A stretch of DNA of 43,592 nucleotides from a virus. This document shows positions 1 through 43,592 of the stretch, one piece after another (position 1 is the stretch's first letter; each line of letters starts with the position of its first letter). The translations under genes were made by a program, and so were the position numbers. A model generated the notes under the pieces. The model was given only the letters and a program-made list of their open reading frames with translations, did no database searches and had not been told where the DNA came from. Location: positions 1 to 43,592 of the IMG/VR virus record IMGVR_UViG_3300047455_000250; one strand, written 5' to 3'.

Positions 1-127
1 GCGAAATAATACTATCTAGCGAGCCAGTGTCACAGGGAGGAAGCGAGCTTGCGAGCGACCCTTGACACGATAGGCGAAGCTAGTAGTAATATGAGCGATT
101 AGTAGGCTGAGCGGTATTATATCCGCC
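1..127. repeat. Terminal direct repeat, left copy
   Basis: Bases 1-127 are identical to 43466-43592, so the two ends of the contig overlap by exactly 127 bases. This is seen directly. An overlap of 127 equals a common largest assembler word size, so the simplest reading is a circular assembly of a complete phage genome of 43,465 unique bases. A true short terminal repeat, as in T7-like phages, would look the same. The repeat holds the end of a small gene (stop at 7-9) and a long hairpin (10-88). Confidence 0.95.
10..88 (+). ncRNA. Candidate structured RNA, hairpin A before portal
   Basis: A long interrupted hairpin begins right after the stop codon at 7-9. Paired arms from outside in are TACTA/TAGTA (10-14 with 84-88), CTAGC/GCTAG (16-20 with 79-83), GCC/GGC (23-25 with 73-75), GTGTCA/TGACAC (27-32 with 63-68) and AGGG/CCCT (34-37 with 59-62). 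The 21-base terminal loop (38-58) starts AGGAAGCGA and ends GAGCGA. The same loop frame appears in the hairpin at 33128-33257, whose stems are different. No T-run follows, so it is not an ordinary terminator. It lies in the late transcript upstream of the portal gene. A role in RNA processing, translation control or packaging is conjecture. Confidence 0.5.
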
Positions 128-164: not shown

Positions 165-2024
165 ATGCCTAACAAGAGTTATACCCTACTAAGAAAGGCA
201 CAACAGAATGTAGCACATTTTACTCGTGCCAGAATAAACTCATTTGATTTTAGTCAGCGCAGACGTCGTATGGAGATAATCGACCAAGCGTTGCAACTAG
301 AACACGCAAAGCGCAGTATTGATGATAAGAAAGACCGCAGACGTGACTACTACGACAGTATTGAAACTGCTCAAATTAGTCCTGCTATTGATACTATCCA
401 AGGGTTCCTAGTGGATTTATTCCTGTCTACTACTCCAATCTTTCCTGCTGTTAGTAATAGTAAAACTGACACCAGTATTGTTCACCAAGTAGATGCTATC
501 AATGAAGAACATGGTCGTCGTTATGGTTGGGCACGCCACTACGCACTGTTCTTTCGTGACCTTGCTAAGTACAACATTGGTGCTACTGAAGTGTCATGGT
601 ACAGTGACCAACAACGTGAACTAGCTCCAAGTTCTACTTCAGCAGAATACAATCAATCGGAAGTGCCACTACAAGATGTTGTAGTATCGGGTAACAGTAT
701 TAAACGTCTTGACCTCTATAACACTTTCTATGATGACAGTGTGCCAGTGTCAGAAATTCACGAGCGTGGGGAGCACGGTGGTTACATTGAGCGCCTTACA
801 TTAGTAGAACTGGTTCGCCGCATTCGCAGTATGAAAACTGGTGGTGGCAAGGTGATGAATGAATCACTAGCACTACAACGTGGGGCTGGCACTACTAGTG
901 AGGAGTTCTTCGTTCCTGACGTGATGCCAAGTGTTGCTCGTGAAAGTACTCAGAATCAGGATGGTAACTGGGAAAACTTTTTCTCAGAGATAGCAGGAGG
1001 TGCTGAACGTAAGTACCAAAGTGCTAGTCTTAGAAGTCTGTATGAAGTCACTACTATCTATGCTCGCATCATTCCTAGTATGTTTGGCATCAACAATGTT
1101 CCAGAGAAGAACACATTACAAATCTGGAAATTTGTTATTGTTGGTGAGGACATAGTACTATTTGCACAGCGACTTGAAAATGTTCACAGCTACTTGCCAG
1201 TAGTATTTGGTCAACTCCGTGAAGATGGTATTGGAGAGCAAGTTAAAAGTACTGCTGAATTACTAGTTCCATTGCAGAACCTTAGCAGTAAACTGTACGA
1301 TGCACGACTAGCAGCCTTAGCTCGAATGAACAACGACCGCATGGCATATATGGATGGTATTGTTGATAGTGCCACTGTCAATAGTAATAATCCTACTAGT
1401 AAGATAAAGGTTCGTCCTAGTGCATTTGTGAAAGATATACGTCAAGCACTGTACCCAATACCGTGGCGTGATGAAATCGGTCCTACTATTATTAACGAAC
1501 TCCAAAATGTTAACAACATGAGTGAGCGTGTTACTCGCCTTAATCGTCCACAACTAGGACAGTTCCAACGAGGTAACAAAACTTTAGGTGAGTTCCAGAC
1601 AGTAATGGCAAATGCTAATGCTGAACTGCGAGTGATGGGATTGCTCATTGAGAATGCAGTACTGCATCCAACTAAGACTATCCTCAAGTACAACATCATG
1701 CAGTTTCAGCCAGTTACTACTGTTAACACTCGTGAGAATGGTGAAGTCAGTGTTAATCCTAATGAGCTTCGCAGTAATAACATCGAGTTCAAACTAGCAG
1801 ATGGACTTGTTACTCGTGATGAACTGTCTGACGCTTCACTAGTACGTGAGATGCTTATGGACTTACGTAGTGACCCTAATGCTGCTATGGAATATGACCT
1901 TAATAAACTACGTGAGTACTTATACGGTCAAGCAGGTATTGACGTAACTCCGTTCCATTTATCTGCTGAAGAAAAAGAGCAGAAACGTCAACAACTAATA
2001 GCACAGCAAGCAGGGAGAAATTAA
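165..2024 (+). CDS. Portal protein (head-to-tail connector)
   Basis: This 619-residue protein would form the dodecameric ring at the head vertex through which DNA is packaged and ejected. The call rests on size, on its position two genes after the large terminase across the contig junction and before scaffold and capsid, and on general resemblance to podovirus portals: a basic helical start, a mixed alpha/beta middle, and a long helical C-terminal half ending in a charged glutamine-rich tail. No single catalytic motif exists to confirm it. The ATG at 165 has only a weak purine-rich stretch (AGGGA) upstream. The stop overlaps the next ATG by one base (TAATG), implying coupled translation. Confidence 0.85.
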   Translation: MPNKSYTLLRKAQQNVAHFTRARINSFDFSQRRRRMEIIDQALQLEHAKRSIDDKKDRRRDYYDSIETAQISPAIDTIQGFLVDLFLSTTPIFPAVSNSKTDTSIVHQVDAINEEHGRRYGWARHYALFFRDLAKYNIGATEVSWYSDQQRELAPSSTSAEYNQSEVPLQDVVVSGNSIKRLDLYNTFYDDSVPVSEIHERGEHGGYIERLTLVELVRRIRSMKTGGGKVMNESLALQRGAGTTSEEFFVPDVMPSVARESTQNQDGNWENFFSEIAGGAERKYQSASLRSLYEVTTIYARIIPSMFGINNVPEKNTLQIWKFVIVGEDIVLFAQRLENVHSYLPVVFGQLREDGIGEQVKSTAELLVPLQNLSSKLYDARLAALARMNNDRMAYMDGIVDSATVNSNNPTSKIKVRPSAFVKDIRQALYPIPWRDEIGPTIINELQNVNNMSERVTRLNRPQLGQFQRGNKTLGEFQTVMANANAELRVMGLLIENAVLHPTKTILKYNIMQFQPVTTVNTRENGEVSVNPNELRSNNIEFKLADGLVTRDELSDASLVREMLMDLRSDPNAAMEYDLNKLREYLYGQAGIDVTPFHLSAEEKEQKRQQLIAQQAGRN

Positions 2025-4610: not shown

Positions 4611-4644
4611 TGCAGTAGTATTTCACAAGTTTTTGTGGCGGTGG

Positions 4645-4689
4645 AGCGCACCTTTAGTACCAGTCTAGGTGCTACTGGTGCGCTTTTTT
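4645..4689 (+). terminator. Rho-independent terminator after capsid gene
   Basis: AGCGCACC (4645-4652) pairs with GGTGCGCT (4677-4684). Inside it TAGTACC pairs with GGTGCTA (one G-U), giving a long two-part stem closed by a six-base loop. A run of six T bases follows (4684-4689). It lies 35 bases after the capsid stop, so it probably reduces transcription into the tail genes and sets a high capsid-to-tail ratio. Confidence 0.85.
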
Positions 4690-4713
4690 CGTTCTAGGCA
4701 TTAGGTAATTATT

Positions 4714-5307: not shown

Positions 5308-5525
5308 TGACAATGATTACAGAAACTCCAGAGGAACGACTAGCAAGACTAGGGCGAACAGTTCCAGTAACCCAAGCCACTCCTTTTGGTAATGTTGTAA
5401 CTCCTCCTGCTACCTACCTAGTGCAAGAATGGAAACAACAACAGATAGTATCTATTATAGGTAAGGTTCCAGAAGATGCTGATGGACTTGGATATGATTT
5501 AACTCCTATTACTTCTGAGGTATAA
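5307..5525 (+). CDS. Small hypothetical protein before tail fibre
   Basis: A 72-residue protein that I do not recognise. The ATG at 5307 overlaps the upstream stop (TAATG), and a GGGGG run lies just upstream. A second in-frame ATG at 5313 is possible. It starts with a charged helix (ETPEERLARLG), followed by a Pro/Thr-rich stretch and a short hydrophobic segment. Its place between the adaptor and the fibre suggests a minor tail component. Confidence 0.6.
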   Translation: MTMITETPEERLARLGRTVPVTQATPFGNVVTPPATYLVQEWKQQQIVSIIGKVPEDADGLGYDLTPITSEV

Positions 5526-5528
5526 CTC

Positions 5529-8500
5529 ATGGCTATTGAAAATGAAGGAATAAATGAAAACGAATTACTAGGTCGTGACTATCGGTGGCAGTATCTTCAG
5601 AATATTGGTGTGAAGCGGATTAGTGGTACACAACTTCTTACTGAAGGTATGGAACCTAAATGGCTGTACTTCATTACTAGTATTGATTCTTTAGCAGTAT
5701 TAGTAAAAGACACTGTTGAAACATATTGGGCAGGGGCTTTTGGACAACCAGTTGCAGGTAGTAATACTCTTCGTGACACCTTGATACCATTTGAAGAACA
5801 ACGCTATTACAGCACTGAAGATAATGTGGCATACATTTATCGTGGAGGTAGTTGGGTAGGTGTATCTGACGGCAGCACCAATATCCGCAGTCCTGAGTAC
5901 GTCAGTATTGATAGTAGTCGTACTGTTGCGGTAGGTCGTAAGTACATTGTTACTGATGATGCCACTATCACACTTCCAACTGATGAAGTTGAAGATGGTC
6001 ATGTAGTAGAAATTGAGCCAGTTAATGGTGCCAATGTTGATATTGCAGGTACTCTTTATTTTGATGGTTCCAACGAGTCAGTGATTGATACTACTGGCAG
6101 TGCTATCTATCGCTGTATCTGGAGTGTTGATAAGTGGTACATTTTCACTAGTCTTATCCCTAGTGATGAAATTGAAGCAGCAGTATCTCAATGTACCATT
6201 TCCGCACAAACAGCACTTGATGCAGCGGAAGCAGCGGAAATGTCAGAGTTTAATTCTGCTGACCATGCAGCCACTGCACAAGAAGCCGCAGCAGTTGCCA
6301 GTAGTCCCCTTGTCTACTACGGTGCTTGGGATGCTAGCGGTGGTACACTTCCTAGTGCTCCAACTAGTGGTAACGGTGTGTGGCTTATTAGTGTTGCAGG
6401 TGACCTTACAGGTGCAAGTCCCTATACCAATGCAGCAGTTGGTCACACACTTGTCTATCGTGAGGCTGACACAAGTTGGACATTACTTCCTACTAATATC
6501 AGTGTCCAGTCTGTTAATGGCAAAACTGGTGCAGTAACTCTCACTGCTAGTGATGTAGGTGCATTACCTGATAGTAATGTAGTAGGTCCTAATGGTGCTC
6601 CAGTAATGTTAGAAGGCGCTTTTGGGGGTCCTACTGGAAGCCAGACATTCTTCCATACTGGCAACTTCACTCCTAGTAATTATGTTACATGGGCAGCAGC
6701 AGGTACCAGTGGACGTGCTGTATTTGAAGCTGCAACAGTAGCGGACATTAAAGCACTTCTACAATATGGAACTGCTGCAAGCCGAAATGTCGGCACTGCT
6801 AATAGCACAAACATTCCTGATATTGCAATACTGAATCAGCGACTTGGGACTACTGGTAACTTATCAGAAGCAGCATCCCGTGCAGTTACTGGTACTGGCG
6901 CTTTGATGACAGTAGGATTTGAAGGCTTCGGGGGTACAGCCATTGAGGAAAGTTGGGATGAAGCTGTCACTGGTAATGGTTTCCGTTACAGTGTCAGTGC
7001 GTCACCCCTCACTGGTCGCAGCTTTAGCGGACTTAATGTACTAGGTAATGAACGTGGGTTCCAGTTTAACGCTGAGAACAGTCGTTGGTTTGGACGTACA
7101 TTTACTAGTGGTAGTGGATTCACTCCTGATAATTGGTATGAATTTGCTACTATTGACGGCACTCGTGACAATTTGCGAGTGGACGTTCATGGTGGTGATG
7201 CCGATAACTATATCTATCTTGGCAGTTTCAATGTAACCTCCAGTGTTGCCAATTTACCCATAGCACTTGATGGAGAGTTGGATGTTGGTGGTGTTGACAG
7301 TGATGCTAGTGGTGGAGGACGTTGTGTTCAGAAATTCGTACCATTTAGTAACACTGGTGTTGAGTTCTATGTTCGTAGTAAGCTCAATGGCACATTTAGT
7401 CCATGGCGTAAGTACAGTAACCTAGGCACACTAGGCAGTGCTGCGGAAGAGGATGTTACCACTTTTGTCGCAGGAAGTTGGGAAGCTGTTGATGCTGCAA
7501 GTTTCCGTAGTTATATGGGACATGGCACTGCCAGTACGTATAATGTAGGCACAGCAGAAGATGAACTTGTTACTAATGCTACACTTGACAGCAAGATTGG
7601 CACACTTGGTACAGCAGCATCTAAAAATGTTGGCACTGCGGCAGGTGAAGTTCCTCTTAACAGTGACCTCAATATTAGTAATTGGAACACAGCTTATGGA
7701 TGGGGTAATCATGCCAGTGCAGGATATGCAGTTGCCAGTAATTTAGGAAATTTGGCTACTAGAGATACTATCAATAATGCTCACTGGTTAGGTACTGACC
7801 TCAGTGTTGCCAATGGTGGTACTGGAGCTAGTACACAATCAGGCGCACGTAGTAACCTAGGATTAAAAAGTGCAGCTACTAGGGATGTTGGTACTAATAG
7901 CGGGGATGTCGTTACTCAAAACGGAACGCTTATCTCGGGTTATCAACAGCTTTACTTTACTGGGATCACTTACGTTGGCGACTGGGGTGTTGATTTAAAC
8001 AATTCTGACATTATTGGTGCAAATTCAATAATCTTTGCTGATGAATCATCTGGAGTTAATGAGGGGTTGTTATTCCCCAAATCTGGCAGTGCGACACAAA
8101 CATTGTCTGACTACTCTAGGATTTCCTCTTATGGATCGGAGCTGGTATTCTCTCCGACTGCTGGAGGGTCGGATTATAATATTTGGGGAAAGCACAACCT
8201 TTCTAGCCCAATGACAACTAATACTAATCAAACGGTTGCAGGAGATAAAAAATTTACGGGATTAGTAGGGATAGGTGAAACTGTTGCACATGTAGCATTT
8301 AATTTAGACTATGCGCCTCCTAGTGGATTTGCAGCAGCTATATTTAGACACAGAGGAGAGGGAAATGCTAATGGTTACATATTTGATATAGATAACATTG
8401 GAGGGTCATATTTAGTTGACTTCAGGCGAGGCAACTCAAGCGTTGCAAGAATTGAAGCAACAGGTAATGTGATAGCAGCCAACTACTATCCAACTTCCTC

Positions 8501-8825
8501 TGACCAACGCCTGAAAAACAAACTACGTCCAGTAGTGATTAACTACCGTCAGGCAGCAGCACTACAAAGTTGGGTGTTCCAGTGGAAAGACATTGAAGCA
8601 GTGCTAGAGAGTCAACGAGGTAAACTGGAAATTGGTCTTATGGCGCAGGAAGTAATGGAAGTATTTCCTCCTAGTGAATATCCATCACTGGTAATTAAAA
8701 AGGACAATGGCTACTACACTATTGACCCTGATAAAATCCTGATGATGCGAGTATTTGCTAAAGTTGAGCCTCGACTAGTAACGTGGTTCAAAGACTTCAA
8801 GCGTTGGCTGAAAGGAGGTGCATAA
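5529..8825 (+). CDS. Tail fibre with self-cleaving S74 chaperone domain
   Basis: This 1,098-residue protein is the receptor-binding fibre. The N-terminal part (about 1-220) is the probable attachment region. The middle contains repeated fibre-type units such as LGTAASKNVGTA around residues 410-790. The C-terminus is a peptidase S74 intramolecular chaperone: SSDQRLK at 990-996 gives Ser991 and Lys996, matching the Ser-Lys dyad that cuts the chaperone off after trimer folding in endosialidase-type fibres. Residues about 785-985 (bases 7,880-8,480) use TCN serine codons rather than the genome's favoured AGT and hold two of the five GATC sites, so this segment looks recently acquired. The stop overlaps the next start. 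Confidence 0.9.
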   Translation: MAIENEGINENELLGRDYRWQYLQNIGVKRISGTQLLTEGMEPKWLYFITSIDSLAVLVKDTVETYWAGAFGQPVAGSNTLRDTLIPFEEQRYYSTEDNVAYIYRGGSWVGVSDGSTNIRSPEYVSIDSSRTVAVGRKYIVTDDATITLPTDEVEDGHVVEIEPVNGANVDIAGTLYFDGSNESVIDTTGSAIYRCIWSVDKWYIFTSLIPSDEIEAAVSQCTISAQTALDAAEAAEMSEFNSADHAATAQEAAAVASSPLVYYGAWDASGGTLPSAPTSGNGVWLISVAGDLTGASPYTNAAVGHTLVYREADTSWTLLPTNISVQSVNGKTGAVTLTASDVGALPDSNVVGPNGAPVMLEGAFGGPTGSQTFFHTGNFTPSNYVTWAAAGTSGRAVFEAATVADIKALLQYGTAASRNVGTANSTNIPDIAILNQRLGTTGNLSEAASRAVTGTGALMTVGFEGFGGTAIEESWDEAVTGNGFRYSVSASPLTGRSFSGLNVLGNERGFQFNAENSRWFGRTFTSGSGFTPDNWYEFATIDGTRDNLRVDVHGGDADNYIYLGSFNVTSSVANLPIALDGELDVGGVDSDASGGGRCVQKFVPFSNTGVEFYVRSKLNGTFSPWRKYSNLGTLGSAAEEDVTTFVAGSWEAVDAASFRSYMGHGTASTYNVGTAEDELVTNATLDSKIGTLGTAASKNVGTAAGEVPLNSDLNISNWNTAYGWGNHASAGYAVASNLGNLATRDTINNAHWLGTDLSVANGGTGASTQSGARSNLGLKSAATRDVGTNSGDVVTQNGTLISGYQQLYFTGITYVGDWGVDLNNSDIIGANSIIFADESSGVNEGLLFPKSGSATQTLSDYSRISSYGSELVFSPTAGGSDYNIWGKHNLSSPMTTNTNQTVAGDKKFTGLVGIGETVAHVAFNLDYAPPSGFAAAIFRHRGEGNANGYIFDIDNIGGSYLVDFRRGNSSVARIEATGNVIAANYYPTSSDQRLKNKLRPVVINYRQAAALQSWVFQWKDIEAVLESQRGKLEIGLMAQEVMEVFPPSEYPSLVIKKDNGYYTIDPDKILMMRVFAKVEPRLVTWFKDFKRWLKGGA

Positions 8826-9785: not shown

Positions 9786-10251
9786 CAAAGACACTACTAT
9801 TGTAAGTATTCATGACAAGTCTATGACTGTGAGTGTATTCAGAGAAGCACTAGAGCGGGAAGGATTTAATGTTAGGGATATTGATTATGAGGACTTTGTA
9901 GCTCATAAATGTCCGTTACCTGTTGATACTGCGTGTGTTCTTATAGATGCTGACAATCTCAACGTGGAAGGTGTAGTCAAACAAGTTGATATGATATTCC
10001 CTGATACTACCATAGTTGTGGTGAGTGGGAAGTTTACTACTGATGACTATGGACCGATAGCAGGGATTAAGGTTATCAAAGTTCGGAAACCTGTTAGTGA
10101 CCACACCATTGCACGAATTGTGGATACCACTACTAAATACAGGGCAGTAACTCAGAGTATGCGCCTAGTGCATATAAGTACTGCTAAACTTCAAGACTAT
10201 ATCAAAGGAGTCACTGATGAGCACGACTCGGATAAAGTTAGCAGTAGATAA
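9778..10251 (+). CDS. Receiver-domain-like protein (CheY fold, degenerate)
   Basis: A 157-residue protein starting at the ATG behind AGAGAGG and overlapping the previous gene by eight bases. A longer start at 9742 lacks a site. Residues 7-118 follow the order of a response-regulator receiver domain: first strand and acidic pocket (TIVSIHDK, only Asp13 kept), second helix (FREALEREGF), phosphoacceptor strand (VLIDAD, Asp57 or Asp59), the Ser/Thr position (VVVSGK, Ser83), and the Lys-Pro pair (KVRKPV, Lys104-Pro105). Residues 120-157 are an extra helical tail. The missing second acidic-pocket residue suggests it may not be phosphorylated. A receiver-like protein among tail genes is unusual, and its role is unknown. 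Confidence 0.55.
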   Translation: MRSKDTTIVSIHDKSMTVSVFREALEREGFNVRDIDYEDFVAHKCPLPVDTACVLIDADNLNVEGVVKQVDMIFPDTTIVVVSGKFTTDDYGPIAGIKVIKVRKPVSDHTIARIVDTTTKYRAVTQSMRLVHISTAKLQDYIKGVTDEHDSDKVSSR

Positions 10252-16409: not shown

Positions 16410-19400
16410 ATGGGACTTTATATTGAACAGCCTACCAGTTTACATAAAGCAGTAGAGCTTGATGAAGCTGAATCCATGGGCGACCAAATAGTAGACTTTG
16501 CTAAATATGGTATCACTGGTGCTCTTACCAGTGGTGCTGTATCCTTTGTGAATACTGGCAAGGCATTTGCTAATATGTTCGGCAGTGAATATGAGTACAC
16601 TGAAACTGCTGACGTTCTTCGTAATAGTGGCTGGGATAATGCAGCATCATACTATGAGGAGCACAAGACTGCCCTTGACATGGTAGGACTAGTTGCAACC
16701 AGTTTCGTTCCTGGTGCTGTTGGCATAAAGGCAGCACGTGCAGTACAAGCAGGACTTAAAGCTGCGGGCAGTAATAGCCGTGCAGTAGTAGGATTGCGTA
16801 AAGCACTGGTTCCTGATGATATGGCTAAGAAATACGCACAGCGATTGCAAACAGAAGGACGGTATTTTGATAAAGACTACCGTTATATGCTCGACGCTGC
16901 TAAACAGGGAATGCACCAACAAGCAGTGGAAACAGCATTTGCAGAAGCAGCCATTCTTACTACTATGAACCAGAACCCTACTCTTACTGGGAAGGACTTA
17001 GACTATCTAGGAGCTATTAAGGAAAACCTTAGCAGCGCAGGATTTGGTCTTGTTCTTGGTACTGGTATTGCAGGTACTATGGATGCCGCCAAGAATTATA
17101 AGGTATTACGAAGCATTGTTAACAATGACATTAAGCGCAGTAATGAATTGATTAACATTGGTGATGTTGACAGTAGTTCTGCCCGTCTTCACATTGCTGA
17201 GGGTGACCGCATATCAATGCTTGCTGCTAATGAGGAAGAAGCTCGTAAAAATCTTGCTCGTGCTGAAAGTGGTGACATTGAAGCTAGCCGTAACAATGTT
17301 CGTGAAATTAAGTCACGGTTGAAGCAACTGGATACGGAACTGGAAGAGCACCTAGCAGTACTAGCATCAGACCCTGTTGGCACACCTGCTGCACTTAAAA
17401 TTGATAGCAGCACACTAACTCCTGCACTCAAGAAAGTGTATAAGCAACTGGAGCCAGAGGATAGACAGAATCTGTTTAGTGGTCTTAAGCGTGCTACCTT
17501 ATATGGTGAAGATGAAATGCTGATGGAGCCTGCTAGTAATCCTGTGAAGTTCTTGGATAACAGTGAGCTTGAGGATTTCTATACCAATAATATCCTAGGT
17601 CTTCCTTCTGGCACTAAACCTGACAGAGCACAGAAACTAGCAGCCAAGAAGTTTGCTGAGGAAACTAAGCTGAATCCAGATGGTACTGGTGTTCGTGGGT
17701 TCACTTTCCCTAATCTAAACAATGGTAACATTGGTACAGGAATTAACAAGAAACTACTGGAAGGAGATAAGGCTACTGCACTTGCGGTAATGCGTCATGA
17801 GTTCGGGCACAACAATACTGACCGCATTGCAAAAGTATTTGAAACTAAGTATGGTAGTCAGATTAAAGACCAACTAGTAGAACTGTCACGCAAAGCACGT
17901 CCTAGCCAGTGGGCATTAGTTGACCGTTCCAAAGGTATCAGGGAAGGAATGCTTCAACGTCTGTCTAAGATGGAAACTCCTGATGATGTACTACTGAAGG
18001 AACTGGGAGAAGTGGAAGATTTCATAGCTAAGTCTGAAACTTACCTTAATCGTCCTGAGGAGTTACTAGCAGATAGTTGGGCAGTAATGAATGACCCTAC
18101 TCAAATCAATGACTTAGTGGAACAGTACAAGGATATCTACACTGTCTTTGCACGTAACAATGCTATCCGTTCTCGTGTTGGTGATACTGAAACATTACTA
18201 GATTTGCGTACTGGTCAAGCATTCACTATGGCAGACCGTGCTCCTACCATTCGTGACCTTGGCAAAGTGGAAATGATTGGTAAGAAATCTGTACGTCATG
18301 CTCGTGGTGTTACTAATGTTACCAAGAAGTTTGACCCTGAGAACATTAACTTTGTAGATGCTTCTGCTCACTACTATGCAGCTGCACGTAATCCTATCAT
18401 TACTGGGAAGGTAAACTTTGAAGCTACTGAGTTGCCAACATTCCTTAAGCTAATGAAAGGTGCTAAACGTGCAGCGGATGATGGTGTGAAGTTTGACCCA
18501 GTAGTATCACTTAAAGATATTGATGGTAACACTCGTACCTTTGACTTCAAAACTGCTCGTGAAGTTGGTAACACTGATGAAGTACTGGCAGAGTTGCGCA
18601 AGGAAATGGTACGTACTAAAGGAGTACTTGCTAATAGACTTGCTAATCGCAAGGAAAATAAACTTGGTGATAGTGATATCAGTCGCATCCTTGATACTGA
18701 CTATGAGTTCAGTGCTTCCAAAGGTATAGACCAGAGTGCTGCTGAGAGTTGGTCTGAGGTATATGACCCTGCTCGTCCTACTGTTGCTAAACTTCGTTAT
18801 GCTAGTAGAGATGTTGCCACTGATGAAGAAATGCGGACTATTGCAGCTACTCAGCACCGTATTAGTGAGGAATACAAACACGCTAATATGCAGGTTGATA
18901 CGTTTCTCGGTAAGTACTTTGGTGATAGCATACAATTCCCTGACAATGCGCAACTGTCACGCACTAACACCATGACGGAGATTACTGATATTACCAATAC
19001 CAATGGTATCGCTCGTAGTTTCCAAGGTGATTATGATGCTATGTCTAAGGTACAGCAGATTGGTGCTACTGATGCTAAGCTTCAACGTGAAGGTCTTAAG
19101 AGAATTGAGCGTGAAGTAGAAGCTACTGCTCACAATGTCCGTATTGATAAGGACGCTCTATATGAGTACAGCGCACTAGATGCTAAACTGCGTCAGGCTA
19201 AATACTTTGAATTACCTAAAGGTGTTAGTTTCCTTGACCATGTATTCAGTGAGTATGCTGCACCTCTTGGTATTACTAGGGAAACATTGCTTGAGAAATT
19301 TGCCCCTATGCAGGACACACTCAAGACTCTCAGTACTAAGCTTGGAGGTAATCAGGCAGCAAATCTAATGTCGAAAGACCTTGAAGCTGTCATTGAGAAG

Positions 19401-32820: not shown

Positions 32821-33078
32821 TTACTCATCACCATATTCCATTTCACTAGGGCGGTCAGCAGGTGCAGGTGGTACTAGTGGAAATGTACGATTAACTTTGG
32901 CAAGTTCAATAGCACTATCAATGTTATTAAGTGCTGCTTCCAGTTCTGACTTAGCACGTATCAATCGCAGTGTTACTTCATCATGTTTAATGTCATCACC
33001 GATAGTGACAATGGTATCACCTATGTTGTGAAGTTGCTGACTAATGCTGTGCTTTGCTGCAAATAAGTGTGATAGCAT
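32821..33078 (-). CDS. Small helical hypothetical protein after hairpin B
   Basis: An 85-residue protein. The start at 33078 is chosen for its strong AGGAGG site. The frame stays open to 33171, but that longer start has no site and runs into the hairpin at 33128-33257. Residues 1-65 are helical (SELEAALNNIDSAIELAK) and the end is Pro-rich and acidic. Function unknown. It is the first gene downstream of the structured element, which may control it. Confidence 0.65.
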   Translation of the reverse strand: MLSHLFAAKHSISQQLHNIGDTIVTIGDDIKHDEVTLRLIRAKSELEAALNNIDSAIELAKVNRTFPLVPPAPADRPSEMEYGDE

Positions 33079-33127
33079 AGTGCTACCTCCTATTAGTAGT
33101 TGATTGTTATTGTGGTAGTGGTGCGGA

Positions 33128-33257
33128 ATTTTCCTCGGTGTCAGGATTGCGACCGTATCACCACTGCTCACGTATCAACACTCGCTCCTTCGTCGCTTCC
33201 TGTGTTGACACTAGTTCGCAGATGCTGATGACTGGGTCGCGCCACCTTGCGGAAAAT
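33128..33257 (-). ncRNA. Candidate structured RNA, hairpin B in early region
   Basis: A 130-base interrupted hairpin lies between two leftward genes. Arms from outside in (leftward sense): ATTTTCC/GGAAAAT, GGTG/CACC, GCGACC/GGTCGC, GT-ATCA/TGAT-AC, CTGC/GCAG, and a ten-pair inner stem GTGTCAACAC/GTGTTGATAC (33211-33202 with 33181-33172). The 20-base loop (33182-33201) begins AGGAAGCGA and ends GAGCGA, as in hairpin A. One inner pair is G-U in the leftward RNA but would be A-C in the other strand's RNA, favouring a leftward transcript. It lacks a T-run. Function unknown. Confidence 0.55.
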
Positions 33258-33268
33258 ATACGCTAGCG

Positions 33269-33679
33269 TTATACAGTGGTATCTATGTGAGTGCCTTTAG
33301 CAGTACCGATAGGAGTACCTCCTACACTAGTGCGCCACAGTCTTTCAACGTGCGTGTTGATAGTATTCCAGAACTGCGCATACTCATTAGATTTAAGTTG
33401 TGGTACTGAAACCGCATCCCACCAGAAGGCGGCTCCAATGTTCCTTTTACCTGCTAGGTTTCGCACTTGGTGCTGTACTCCATCGATAAAGTCTTCGTTG
33501 TTACTATCTTCCAGTATGCCACGACTGATAGCACAACACATTTGACGGTAACTAATGCGAGTACCGAACTTAGCGTTTGCCAGTGCTAGTGCATGGTCAT
33601 AGCGTTGCTTTACTCTCGGTGAGTTCAGTACTACATGGATGCCGTGAACATCCTCAGATTTACGATTGCCTTTATACAT
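33269..33679 (-). CDS. Hypothetical protein
   Basis: A 136-residue basic protein that I do not recognise. GAGGAG lies before the ATG, which overlaps the upstream stop (TAATG). It has a helical middle with Cys-Cys at about 48-49 and a Trp pair (AAFWWDAV) near residue 85. It is the last gene before hairpin B. Confidence 0.65.
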   Translation of the reverse strand: MYKGNRKSEDVHGIHVVLNSPRVKQRYDHALALANAKFGTRISYRQMCCAISRGILEDSNNEDFIDGVQHQVRNLAGKRNIGAAFWWDAVSVPQLKSNEYAQFWNTINTHVERLWRTSVGGTPIGTAKGTHIDTTV

Positions 33680-40401: not shown

Positions 40402-40443
40402 GATTATGTCCCTCTAGTTAGTTAACATTTAATTAAGTGTTAT

Positions 40444-40483
40444 CACCTGTGACGGTGAGAAAGTATCTTACCAAACACCTGTG
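40444..40483. promoter_or_regulatory. Paired CACCTGTG operator-like sites
   Basis: CACCTGTG occurs at 40444-40451 and 40476-40483, start to start 32 bases (about three turns). One lies between the -35 and -10 boxes of the leftward promoter at 40465-40493 and the other just after its likely start point. The second runs into TGTGCCAAATG (40480-40490), which recurs at 38932-38942 near the other early promoter. Confidence 0.45.
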
Positions 40484-40493
40484 CCAAATGCAA
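40465..40493 (-). promoter_or_regulatory. Leftward promoter for isolated early gene
   Basis: On the leftward strand TTGCAT (40493-40488), a 17-base spacer and TAAGAT (40470-40465) form a plausible sigma70 promoter about 65 bases before the ATG at 40401. CACCTGTG sites overlap it. Confidence 0.55.
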
Positions 40494-40690
40494 CAAGTCT
40501 TTCTCATACTTTCCACTGTTAATACTAGCAAACATTTCCAACTAATGCCAGTACTAACAGCAAATAAAATTGTAAAGATTGCCATTGTTGTTACTACTAC
40601 CACACCACAGAAAATGTTAGGTGGGAATGAGTATGATTCGTATTAGTGATAGGGGGTAGGAACTTTTTTACCTTGTGCGCCTAGAGTCCT

Positions 40691-40718
40691 ATATTAGCTC
40701 CCCGTAAAATTTTCTAAA
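40691..40718 (-). promoter_or_regulatory. Possible second leftward promoter
   Basis: TTTAGA (40718-40713), 16 bases, TAATAT (40696-40691) on the leftward strand. The sequence just after it, AGGACTCTAGG then CGCACA, closely resembles AGGATTCTAGG then TCGCACA just after the promoter at 38974-39002. The shared segment supports both being early promoters. Confidence 0.35.
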
Positions 40719-40864
40719 GTTTTGTGGGTTTCCCCCAGTACTAGTAACACACTATGCAGTATGCTGTGGAAGTGGCAAGAAGTCGCACTCTCTTAGTAGC
40801 ACACACACAACTCACCATTAGGTTAGTGGTGGCACAGAAAGTCCACTCCCTTCGGTAGAAAAAG

Positions 40865-40893
40865 TTGGTAGTGAGGGTTGATTTTGATATGAT
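40865..40893 (+). promoter_or_regulatory. Probable rightward late promoter before terminase genes
   Basis: TTGGTA (40865-40870), a 17-base spacer and TATGAT (40888-40893) give a reasonable -10 box with a weak -35 box, about 70 bases before the small terminase ATG. A weak -35 would fit a late promoter that needs help from a phage protein. An alternating purine-pyrimidine tract follows. Confidence 0.45.
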
Positions 40894-40903
40894 AATGGTA
40901 TAT

Positions 40904-40935
40904 CACGCGCGCGCACGCACACACGCGCATATATA
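40904..40935. other. 32-base alternating purine-pyrimidine tract (Z-DNA-prone)
   Basis: Every base from 40904 to 40935 alternates pyrimidine and purine: mostly CG and CA steps, then TA steps at the end. Such tracts can flip to left-handed DNA under supercoiling. It lies between the likely late promoter and the small terminase gene, in what would be the late mRNA leader. Confidence 0.8.
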
Positions 40936-40961
40936 AAGGAAGGGGCATAAGGGGTAATGGT

Positions 40962-41663: not shown

Positions 41664-43253
41664 ATGGATGCTCCATCGCCACCACCATCTTCTACTAGCC
41701 CAGTAGCTCTCAATACTGACAACTTTAAGCAACTGTTGCGCACCTCACTAGATTATCTAGGAGGAACAGCACTACCAGATGTTTGTACTGTTGCATTCTC
41801 AGATTTGCACAATAACATTTGGGAACTACTACGAAACTCATGTGAAAGTGAGGTAATGGAATACCTGCGTTTCGCAATAGGTCTACCTCGTGGTCATGCT
41901 AAAACACAAATCATAAAGCTACTGATAATGTGGATAGTCTTCTACACTGATAGACGATTCATACTAGTAGTGTCCAATACTGCTGGCGCTGCACAGAACA
42001 TTATCAATGATGTTTGTGACATGATGAGTGAGCCTAACATTGTTAATGTGTTTGGTGACTGGCGACATGACATTGAGAAGAATAATGCGGAACTGACAAT
42101 ATTCAACTTTAATGGTCGCAAGGTAATACTAAAGCCAATGGGTATTGGTAGTAGTGTTCGTGGTACTAACATTAACAACCGTCGTCCTGAAGTAATAATA
42201 TGTGATGATGCGCAGGACAAGGAAGAAGCTATGAGTCCTGAGATAGCACGGAAGCAGTTGCAGTGGTTCTTGGGTACACTACTAAAGGCACGCTCACCTC
42301 AACGCTGTACTGTTATCTACATTGGTAATATGTACCCTGATATTGAAATTGGTGATAAAGGTAGTGGTGTCTATGGCTGCATCCTTCGGAACCTGCAACT
42401 TAATAGTGAATGGCGTTCATGGATTACTGGTGCAATACAGGAAGATGGTACAGCACTATGGCCTGAGGTACACTCGCTGCAATCACTACTATCAGACCTA
42501 GCACAAGATAGTGATATGGGAGAAGCTGACATTTGGCACGCAGAAGTGCAGAACAATCCCAATCCTAACATTAACAAGTTCCTCGACTTTGATAAGATAC
42601 CGGAATATCCATATGATGAAGCTGACCCAGTAATAGGAAAGTTCATCATGATTGACCCATCACTAGGTAAGAAAACCAGTGATAACCAGATAGTAATGCT
42701 GTTCTATGTATATGATGACAAAGGACCAGTAGCACGAGAATTCCGAGTAATGCAGAATGATGCACCAACAGTAGTAAAGGAAACAATCCAGTGGGCATTG
42801 GAGGAACGTGTGCCATTAGTGTGCAGTGAGAACTATGCTTATCAGGCATCACTACTGCAATGGTTCGTGTTCGTGATGAAAAATATCCAAGTGCCAGAAC
42901 AGGAGATACAATTCGTTGGGATTAACAGAGGTGCCAGAAAGGGCGGCAATACTAAGAACACAGCAATCATTAGTAGCTTCCGCCAGATAATGAAAGGCAG
43001 CTTGATACTACATCCTAATGTCCTGTCACCATATAAGACAGAAGCGCAACTATTCAATCCTACTACTGACAAGAACGTGGATGACGTACTGGATACTACT
43101 GAATATGGACTTCATATATTCCGTGACTACACTAGTGAATATCTTCTGGACACTCCCTTGTTGATAGGTGAGAGCTATGGTATAACTGATGCTACTAAAC
43201 ACGATGATGACTTTGACCCAACATCTTATGACTTTAGTGGAGGACTAAACTAA
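41664..43253 (+). CDS. terL: Terminase large subunit (packaging ATPase-nuclease)
   Basis: A 529-residue motor that pumps DNA into the head and cuts it. The ATPase domain shows a variant Walker A GLPRGHAKT (73-81), a typical terminase form, then a strand FILVVSNTAGAAQNI, and Walker B VIICDDAQ (177-184). The C-terminal nuclease domain begins at FIMIDPS (Asp331), with a second acidic site near VCSENYAY. Size is normal. GAGAGGG precedes the ATG. The stop overlaps the next start (TAATG). Confidence 0.93.
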   Translation: MDAPSPPPSSTSPVALNTDNFKQLLRTSLDYLGGTALPDVCTVAFSDLHNNIWELLRNSCESEVMEYLRFAIGLPRGHAKTQIIKLLIMWIVFYTDRRFILVVSNTAGAAQNIINDVCDMMSEPNIVNVFGDWRHDIEKNNAELTIFNFNGRKVILKPMGIGSSVRGTNINNRRPEVIICDDAQDKEEAMSPEIARKQLQWFLGTLLKARSPQRCTVIYIGNMYPDIEIGDKGSGVYGCILRNLQLNSEWRSWITGAIQEDGTALWPEVHSLQSLLSDLAQDSDMGEADIWHAEVQNNPNPNINKFLDFDKIPEYPYDEADPVIGKFIMIDPSLGKKTSDNQIVMLFYVYDDKGPVAREFRVMQNDAPTVVKETIQWALEERVPLVCSENYAYQASLLQWFVFVMKNIQVPEQEIQFVGINRGARKGGNTKNTAIISSFRQIMKGSLILHPNVLSPYKTEAQLFNPTTDKNVDDVLDTTEYGLHIFRDYTSEYLLDTPLLIGESYGITDATKHDDDFDPTSYDFSGGLN

Positions 43254-43474
43254 TGTCTTTACTTGAACTACTAATAGCAGGAGTAATACTGGCACTGTTC
43301 CTGTGTCCTCCTGCACGTGATACCAGTGATGCAGATGCCATTAATGATGCGGGTCATCCTTTTGGCAGGGATGAGGATGTAGTAGATGAAAGTATCAATG
43401 GTAATACTACTGCCACATCAACCACCACTGATACACCCGAAGGGTATAATCCGCCGAAGCCTGCCGCGAAATAA
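43253..43474 (+). CDS. Small membrane-anchored protein before portal
   Basis: A 73-residue protein with an N-terminal hydrophobic segment (LLELLIAGVILALFLC, residues 3-18), then a polar Asp/Thr/Asn/Pro-rich tail. The cysteine after the hydrophobic run followed by Pro-Pro could be a lipid site, but LFLC is not a standard lipobox, so a simple membrane anchor is more likely. Its stop falls inside the terminal repeat, just before hairpin A. An outer-spanin role is possible but unproven. Confidence 0.6.
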   Translation: MSLLELLIAGVILALFLCPPARDTSDADAINDAGHPFGRDEDVVDESINGNTTATSTTTDTPEGYNPPKPAAK

Positions 43475-43592
43475 TACTATCTAGCGAGCCAGTGTCACAG
43501 GGAGGAAGCGAGCTTGCGAGCGACCCTTGACACGATAGGCGAAGCTAGTAGTAATATGAGCGATTAGTAGGCTGAGCGGTATTATATCCGCC
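43466..43592. repeat. Terminal direct repeat, right copy
   Basis: Exact copy of bases 1-127. It includes the last nine bases of the small membrane protein gene and a second view of hairpin A at 43475-43553. On the circular genome this is the same locus as the left end. Confidence 0.95.

Follow-up and report, generated by a model that had tools for sequence, protein, structure and literature searches.

The genome of a phage (IMG/VR record IMGVR_UViG_3300047455_000250, 43,592 nucleotides, the whole of which was analysed and is termed the window here) contains two long hairpins, A and B, and raises the question of what these structures are and in which nucleic acid they may act. In the preliminary description they had been regarded as hairpins with one common terminal loop on unrelated stems. 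The loop pattern AGGAAGCGA-N(3..9)-GAGCGA is indeed present at both, with three matches in the window (38-58 and 43503-43523 on the plus strand, 33182-33201 on the minus strand) and none in 100 shuffles. The window is a complete circular record the ends of which overlap by 127 bp, positions 1-127 being exactly identical to 43466-43592. The two plus-strand matches are therefore a single copy, and hairpin A reaches beyond positions 10-88, to which it had been assigned: the hairpin is real but its extent was wrong (Table 1; RNA minimum free energy -66.8 kcal/mol, z -6.3 versus shuffles for a fold of 43440-43592). Hairpin B folds as originally described, including the G-U pair that had been pointed out. 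Hairpin A is flanked by a 73-aa open reading frame following terL on one side and the portal gene on the other, and its 5' arm shares sequence with the final ~11 codons of ORF 43253-43474, while hairpin B sits between ORF 33269-33679 and an ORF with its ATG at 33078, both on the minus strand. Each hairpin is thus located between genes of the same transcription direction and, as had been stated, lies in the sense of local transcription: the coding strand folds better than the opposite one with RNA as well as with DNA parameters (DNA-parameter energies of -28.5 vs -22.0 for A and -25.0 vs -17.5 for B). It was also correct that no T-run directly follows either stem; a single terminator-like match near B is situated outside the hairpin. 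A search for tRNAs found none. The 136-aa ORF upstream of B (33269-33679) has a Pfam match to an aldehyde dehydrogenase fragment that barely clears the cut-off and is probably spurious or a remote relic. An ordinary terminator-like hairpin with a T-run (GGTGCGC...GCGCTTTTTT) is found behind the capsid gene at 4611-4713.

Table 1. Positions of hairpins A and B, their promoter-like boxes and the genes downstream of them in the window
Feature	Position	Strand	Evidence or remark
Hairpin A, full extent, 149 nt	43442-43590	+	fold, z -6.3 as RNA, -3.4 as DNA
Hairpin A, second reading of most of it (end overlap, no separate copy)	1-125	+	1-127 identical to 43466-43592
Hairpin A apex, AGGAAGCGA-GCTTGC-GAGCGA	43503-43523	+	
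Hairpin A -35-like TTGACA, 3' arm, adjoining apex	43527-43532	+	
Hairpin A -10-like TAATAT, 3' arm, spacing 19 (TTGACA-19-TAATAT), weak	43552-43557	+	missed by strict 16-18 scan
Hairpin B	33122-33257	-	fold, z -3.3 as RNA, -2.6 as DNA
Hairpin B apex, AGGAAGCGA-CGAAG-GAGCGA; C-GAA-G triloop with G.A/A.G on flanks	33182-33201	-	
Hairpin B -35-like TTGATA, 3' arm, adjoining apex	33173-33178	-	
Hairpin B -10-like TACGGT, 3' arm, spacing 15 (TTGATA-15-TACGGT), weak	33152-33157	-	missed by strict scan
Portal gene (SU10-type), downstream of A	165-2024	+	Pfam PF23899
Small ORF downstream of B; RBS GGAGG at ~33088-33092	32821-33078	-	sequence, ORF list

The assertion that the stems are unrelated did not hold. 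A and B share GTGTCA...TTGAYAC adjoining the loop, which is itself less widely conserved than this element. Exact copies of the loop string are rare; when it was taken as the defining feature in a scan of IMG/VR, at least 120 matches emerged, and those inspected were random occurrences not embedded in such a hairpin, so that this definition was abandoned. Within long hairpins, the form GGGAGGAAGCGA...CCCTTG was found only in the related genome G001 (two copies) and in contig L350. What the elements have in common is a core, GTCAA(GGG)...(CCC)TTGAC, on both sides of the apex, the loop being variable and that of the window representing one variant. A search of IMG/VR with TGTCAAGGG-N-CCCTTGACA brought up many more long hairpins in other contigs. 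Very long and very stable ones around TGTCAAGGG...CCCTTGACA occur in contigs L320, L344, L366, L369, L338, L342 and L359, none of which yielded a homologue of the query proteins; the hairpin family may be much wider. Three copies lie within 8.5 kb of L359, accompanied by TTGACA-17-TATAGT / TACTAT boxes on either strand. In IMG/VR contigs L321, L323, L339, L340 and L365 a separate repeated pattern was noted, TGTCAAGGGTAAAYAARCG...CGCCCTTGACA, the apex of which is short.

Judged by terminase and capsid, the virus is close to the isolate Aeromonas phage P5 (terL 38%, capsid 48-53% identity), and members of the Pseudomonas PaP2/119X group are more distant relatives on the basis of the same proteins. 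A single-sequence terL search of IMG/VR gave no matches; alignments of the major capsid protein (MCP) and terL succeeded as queries and led to three close relatives, G001, G002 and G003, with capsid identities of 63%, 58% and 54%, respectively. As whole-genome sliding-window folding was dominated by coding regions and proved too permissive, a scanner for long inverted repeats was adopted. It detected three hairpins each in G001 and G002, two in G003 and eight in P5; contig L211 holds four elements and other contigs single ones. The hairpins of the relatives, two to eight per genome, are situated between genes and reach energies down to about -110 kcal/mol. None of the eight P5 copies appears in the annotation of that phage, and a blastn search of GenBank phages with a P5 hairpin returned P5 itself only. 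The P5 hairpin at 8401-8589 (L124) falls within the 3' end of CDS P5_0037 as annotated, and the reading frame of this CDS passes through it; the gene has been annotated too long or, alternatively, the hairpin element is translated. Our catalogue comprises 29 elements from 13 records, elements of one genome not being independent of each other, and in 28 of the 29 the strand that codes for the flanking genes was defined as "sense". The exception is L211_2, for which the more stable strand, antisense to the neighbours, was taken as sense. The four L211 hairpins (5334-5519, 6277-6466, 9799-9986 and 16434-16613) are all related, and one of them runs antisense to its neighbouring genes. They feature conserved asymmetric loops, ATTAAGAA / TTCGGTT and AGAAGTTG / GTATACTT, and TTGNNA-17-TAATGT-like boxes, the latter on the strand that folds less well. 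Hairpins A and B are therefore members of a multi-copy family of long, fast-changing and always self-pairing elements. The original observation is real and larger in scope than first noted, and its prediction that relatives would contain more intergenic copies with compensating stem changes was strongly confirmed in the IMG/VR relatives and P5.

Among copies of the same genome, compensated pairs amount to 13/43 in G001, 20/52 in G002, 15/38 in L211 and 6/35 in G003, compared to 0-4 in slid controls; for P5 and the cross-genome sets the automatic alignment was too poor for judging such pairs. The copies upstream of portal from different genomes are too diverged for alignment and yield 9 consensus pairs. 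Mean identity is 0.48 for copies within one genome, 0.35 for the same junction in different genomes and 0.34 for any two elements from different genomes, indicating concerted evolution within genomes. An element occupies the gap directly upstream of the portal gene in the window (G000), G001, G002 and G003, none is present there in P5, and most relatives identified by terL have no gap at this site; it follows that junctions can acquire or lose an element. The greater similarity of same-genome copies and the variation of junctions between phages could also be expected from a mobile palindromic element of the ERIC, REP or MITE kind that spreads in phage genomes without a function for its host. 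Such an origin appears improbable to us, since the arms are not repeat-like between genomes, the orientation tracks the genes, the proteins scanned include no transposase and the junction upstream of portal is common to four genomes.

The apex GCGNAGC is found on the coding strand of 14 of the 29 elements and on the opposite strand of two, with 0.8 expected from shuffles. This sequence corresponds to a DNA mini-hairpin with a C-GNA-G turn, and DNA mini-hairpins with GNA loops are reported to be extraordinarily stable (PMC4686876). In a strand-neutral alignment of the 29 elements, the arms of the sense strand exhibit 54 G.T versus 24 A.C mismatches (p 9e-4) and 69 G.A versus 18 C.T mismatches (p 3e-8), pointing at selection of one strand for folding, and the DNA-parameter energy is lower on the sense strand in 26 of the 29. 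In their loops and mismatches the elements resemble DNA more than RNA, although this falls short of proof. Had the elements been selected as structured RNAs within polycistronic transcripts, be it for RNase III processing or protection of mRNA, as in T7, or for antitermination, their intergenic location in the transcribed sense (28 of 29), their stems of ~40-60 pairs, the better folding of the sense strand and the preference for G-U over A-C would all be accounted for. GNRA and UNCG tetraloops are, however, nearly missing (one each among the 29 elements) where DNA-type C-GNA-G apices are common, G.A mismatches outnumber G.U, the window has no Rfam match at the gathering threshold, and neither the promoter signature nor the footprint-sized stem described below is predicted by a role in RNA, which we consider distinctly unlikely. 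T7 RNase III processing sites are intergenic hairpins in the transcribed sense, as are the phage elements, but they are shorter, lack an embedded promoter geometry and are not built on C-GNA-G apices. Of the two options offered in the preliminary description, a DNA hairpin or a structured RNA with a conserved loop, the former is favoured. The latter is not the best reading: the loop varies, and what is conserved is TTGAC next to the apex, the C-GNA-G mini-hairpins, the excess of G.A over G.U and a stem that matches a polymerase footprint in length, as does that of Frpo, a promoter of the F plasmid. Still, the hairpins may have a role as RNA.

The TTGAC of the core resembles a -35 box, and a -10-like TAnnnT (or TAnnAC) follows it after 15-19 nt on the sense strand of 16 of 24 elements, as opposed to a mean of 1.9 and a maximum of 8 in 2000 shuffles and to 6 of 21 on the antisense strand, in a test that was framed after part of these elements had already been seen. 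When pairing is plotted from the first base of TTGAC, this box is unpaired in very few elements, internal loops concentrate at offsets of about 9-12, 23-28 and 32-34, and pairing drops at an offset of ~55. If the -35 box is placed at about -36, the stem extends to ~+20, matching the footprint of RNA polymerase. In the window, the boxes are weak: a strict -35/-10 scan of A and B gave no match on the coding strand, and the best strict match in A is on the opposite strand. The promoter case accordingly rests on the family. TTGACA pairs without a hairpin in the contigs found with TGTCAAGGG-N-CCCTTGACA also possess -10-like boxes (25/54 arms); these many sites preclude a clean specificity test, and this set of contigs does not link the promoter signal to hairpins. 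Does the family then simply consist of ordinary double-stranded promoters of the downstream genes, in which the inverted left arm is regulatory (binding a repressor or activator, for instance, or forming part of divergent promoters)? The boxes aim at the downstream gene, several elements (P5 copies) end just short of its Shine-Dalgarno sequence, and -10 boxes also accompany TTGACA pairs that have no hairpin. Left unexplained are 60-70 bp of self-complementarity held by compensated changes, the G.T/G.A bias of one strand and the C-GNA-G apices, so that we judge this explanation unlikely, albeit worth serious consideration. As the boxes in double-stranded DNA point at the downstream gene as well, a plain promoter role may coexist with one in single-stranded DNA.

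Single-stranded-DNA promoters of conjugative plasmids turn on anti-defence genes and prime second-strand synthesis. As a positive control we subjected the leading region of the F plasmid to the same scanner and folding procedure as the phage elements, which recovered Frpo1 (189 nt) and Frpo2 (187 nt, upstream of ssb). In both, TGTCC.GGG...CCC.TGGACA adjoins the apex, loops occur at offsets 5-13 and 24-33, and the stem ends at ~55-62. The Frpo stem-loop rebuilds -10 and -35 boxes, and the two copies in F are reported to be 92% identical (PMC9849209); lagging-strand synthesis is primed by Frpo/ssi transcripts, which double as mRNA (PMC7736820), and Frpo-like promoters are widespread in leading regions of plasmids (PMC11541004). 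A limited literature search found no report of such promoters in tailed phages. The phage elements resemble Frpo1/Frpo2 (ssiD) of F and ssi2/ssi3 of ColIb-P9 in being long imperfect hairpins of one strand, and they share with Frpo a GGG/CCC clamp and a -35-like box adjoining the apex, a comparable spacing of loops and a stem end at ~+20. Boxes rebuilt within a long hairpin, the feature expected of a single-strand promoter, are found in the family and, weakly, in the copies of the window. Common sequence is limited, by direct comparison, to the short core TGTC(C/A)..GGG...CCCT(G/T)GACA, and the pairing profiles of Frpo and phage elements correlate modestly (r 0.31, rank 4 of 53 shifts). Unlike Frpo/ssi, the elements reside in tailed double-stranded phages, number up to eight per genome (two Frpo in F) and occur on both strands, following the direction of transcription. 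Moreover, the genes expressed in F use the folded strand as their template, whereas in nearly all phage copies this strand is the coding one for the genes on either side.

Other hairpin promoters offer less complete parallels. The single-strand origin (sso) of rolling-circle plasmids is a long imperfect hairpin used as a promoter by host RNA polymerase, which thereby makes a primer (PMC4595007). The phage elements are likewise long imperfect hairpins and candidate primer promoters, but they occur on both strands, which argues against a single rolling-circle strand, and no rolling-circle replicon was seen. Promoter hairpins of the N4 virion RNA polymerase have a loop with a sheared G.A pair (PMC4496689); they differ by stems of 5-7 bp with a 3-nt loop and by their use of a phage polymerase, as compared to ~45-60 pairs and sigma-70-like boxes here. 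An N4-type promoter was rejected in view of these far longer stems and of a 1835-aa virion protein in which Pfam and PHROGs reveal no polymerase domain.

With slightly better than even confidence, we interpret the family as folded-DNA promoters of the Frpo kind, which act on single-stranded DNA and probably prime lagging-strand synthesis. From the computed family, strand bias, promoter signature, geometry and match to Frpo we infer that the coding strand would become single-stranded in the cell, most likely as the lagging-strand template during replication, and would fold into a hairpin of ~150-190 nt, the arms of which would form an artificial double-stranded promoter of the sigma-70 type. 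The apex, often a C-GNA-G DNA mini-hairpin, would be placed directly upstream of the -35 box (TTGAC) in the apex-proximal part of the 3' arm, with the -10 box 15-19 nt further out and the stem ending at ~+20. Host RNA polymerase would initiate with the 5' arm as template, leave through the base of the hairpin and continue into the single-stranded DNA 5' of it. The RNA made in this way would run antisense to the upstream gene and act as a primer, just as the Frpo transcripts do besides being mRNA. Since the folded strand in the phages is the coding strand of the neighbouring genes and the RNA would be antisense, only the primer role fits here.

The layout of the window agrees with this priming function under one assumption. 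Early and late genes diverge from a gap at ~40.4-40.96 kb, and GC and AT skew flip sign with the coding direction. Should the origin lie in this gap, the coding strand would be the lagging-strand template on both sides, making the elements lagging-strand start sites; this location of the origin is assumed, and the same skew could arise from coding bias alone. The divergent gap itself (40402-40961, 560 nt) is strongly folded, contains TTGATTTTGATATGATAAT near its end and is a candidate origin and early promoter region. The gene at 22544-23806 matches a PHROG called DNA primase, a DUF3987 protein matching a PHROG of that name, and a missing primase is therefore no part of our argument. Hairpins on the presumed lagging-strand template with apices of the GCGAAGC type might also be initiation sites for a primosome or primase in the style of phiX174 or G4, acting independently of RNA polymerase. 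This we regard as very improbable because the -35/-10 signature and the footprint-sized stem would be left without an explanation.

Aeromonas phage P5, which is cultured and carries eight copies, allows a direct test of the reading as folded single-stranded promoters. It is conceivable, at somewhat less than even confidence, that a group of tailed double-stranded phages possesses dispersed, fixed second-strand start sites at which host RNA polymerase primes both forks and the stems of which evolve in concert. To our knowledge, such a replication strategy has so far been described only for plasmids and single-stranded phages. If true, members of this group would expose and use folded single strands in the cell, and host RNA polymerase may prime the replication of these phages.
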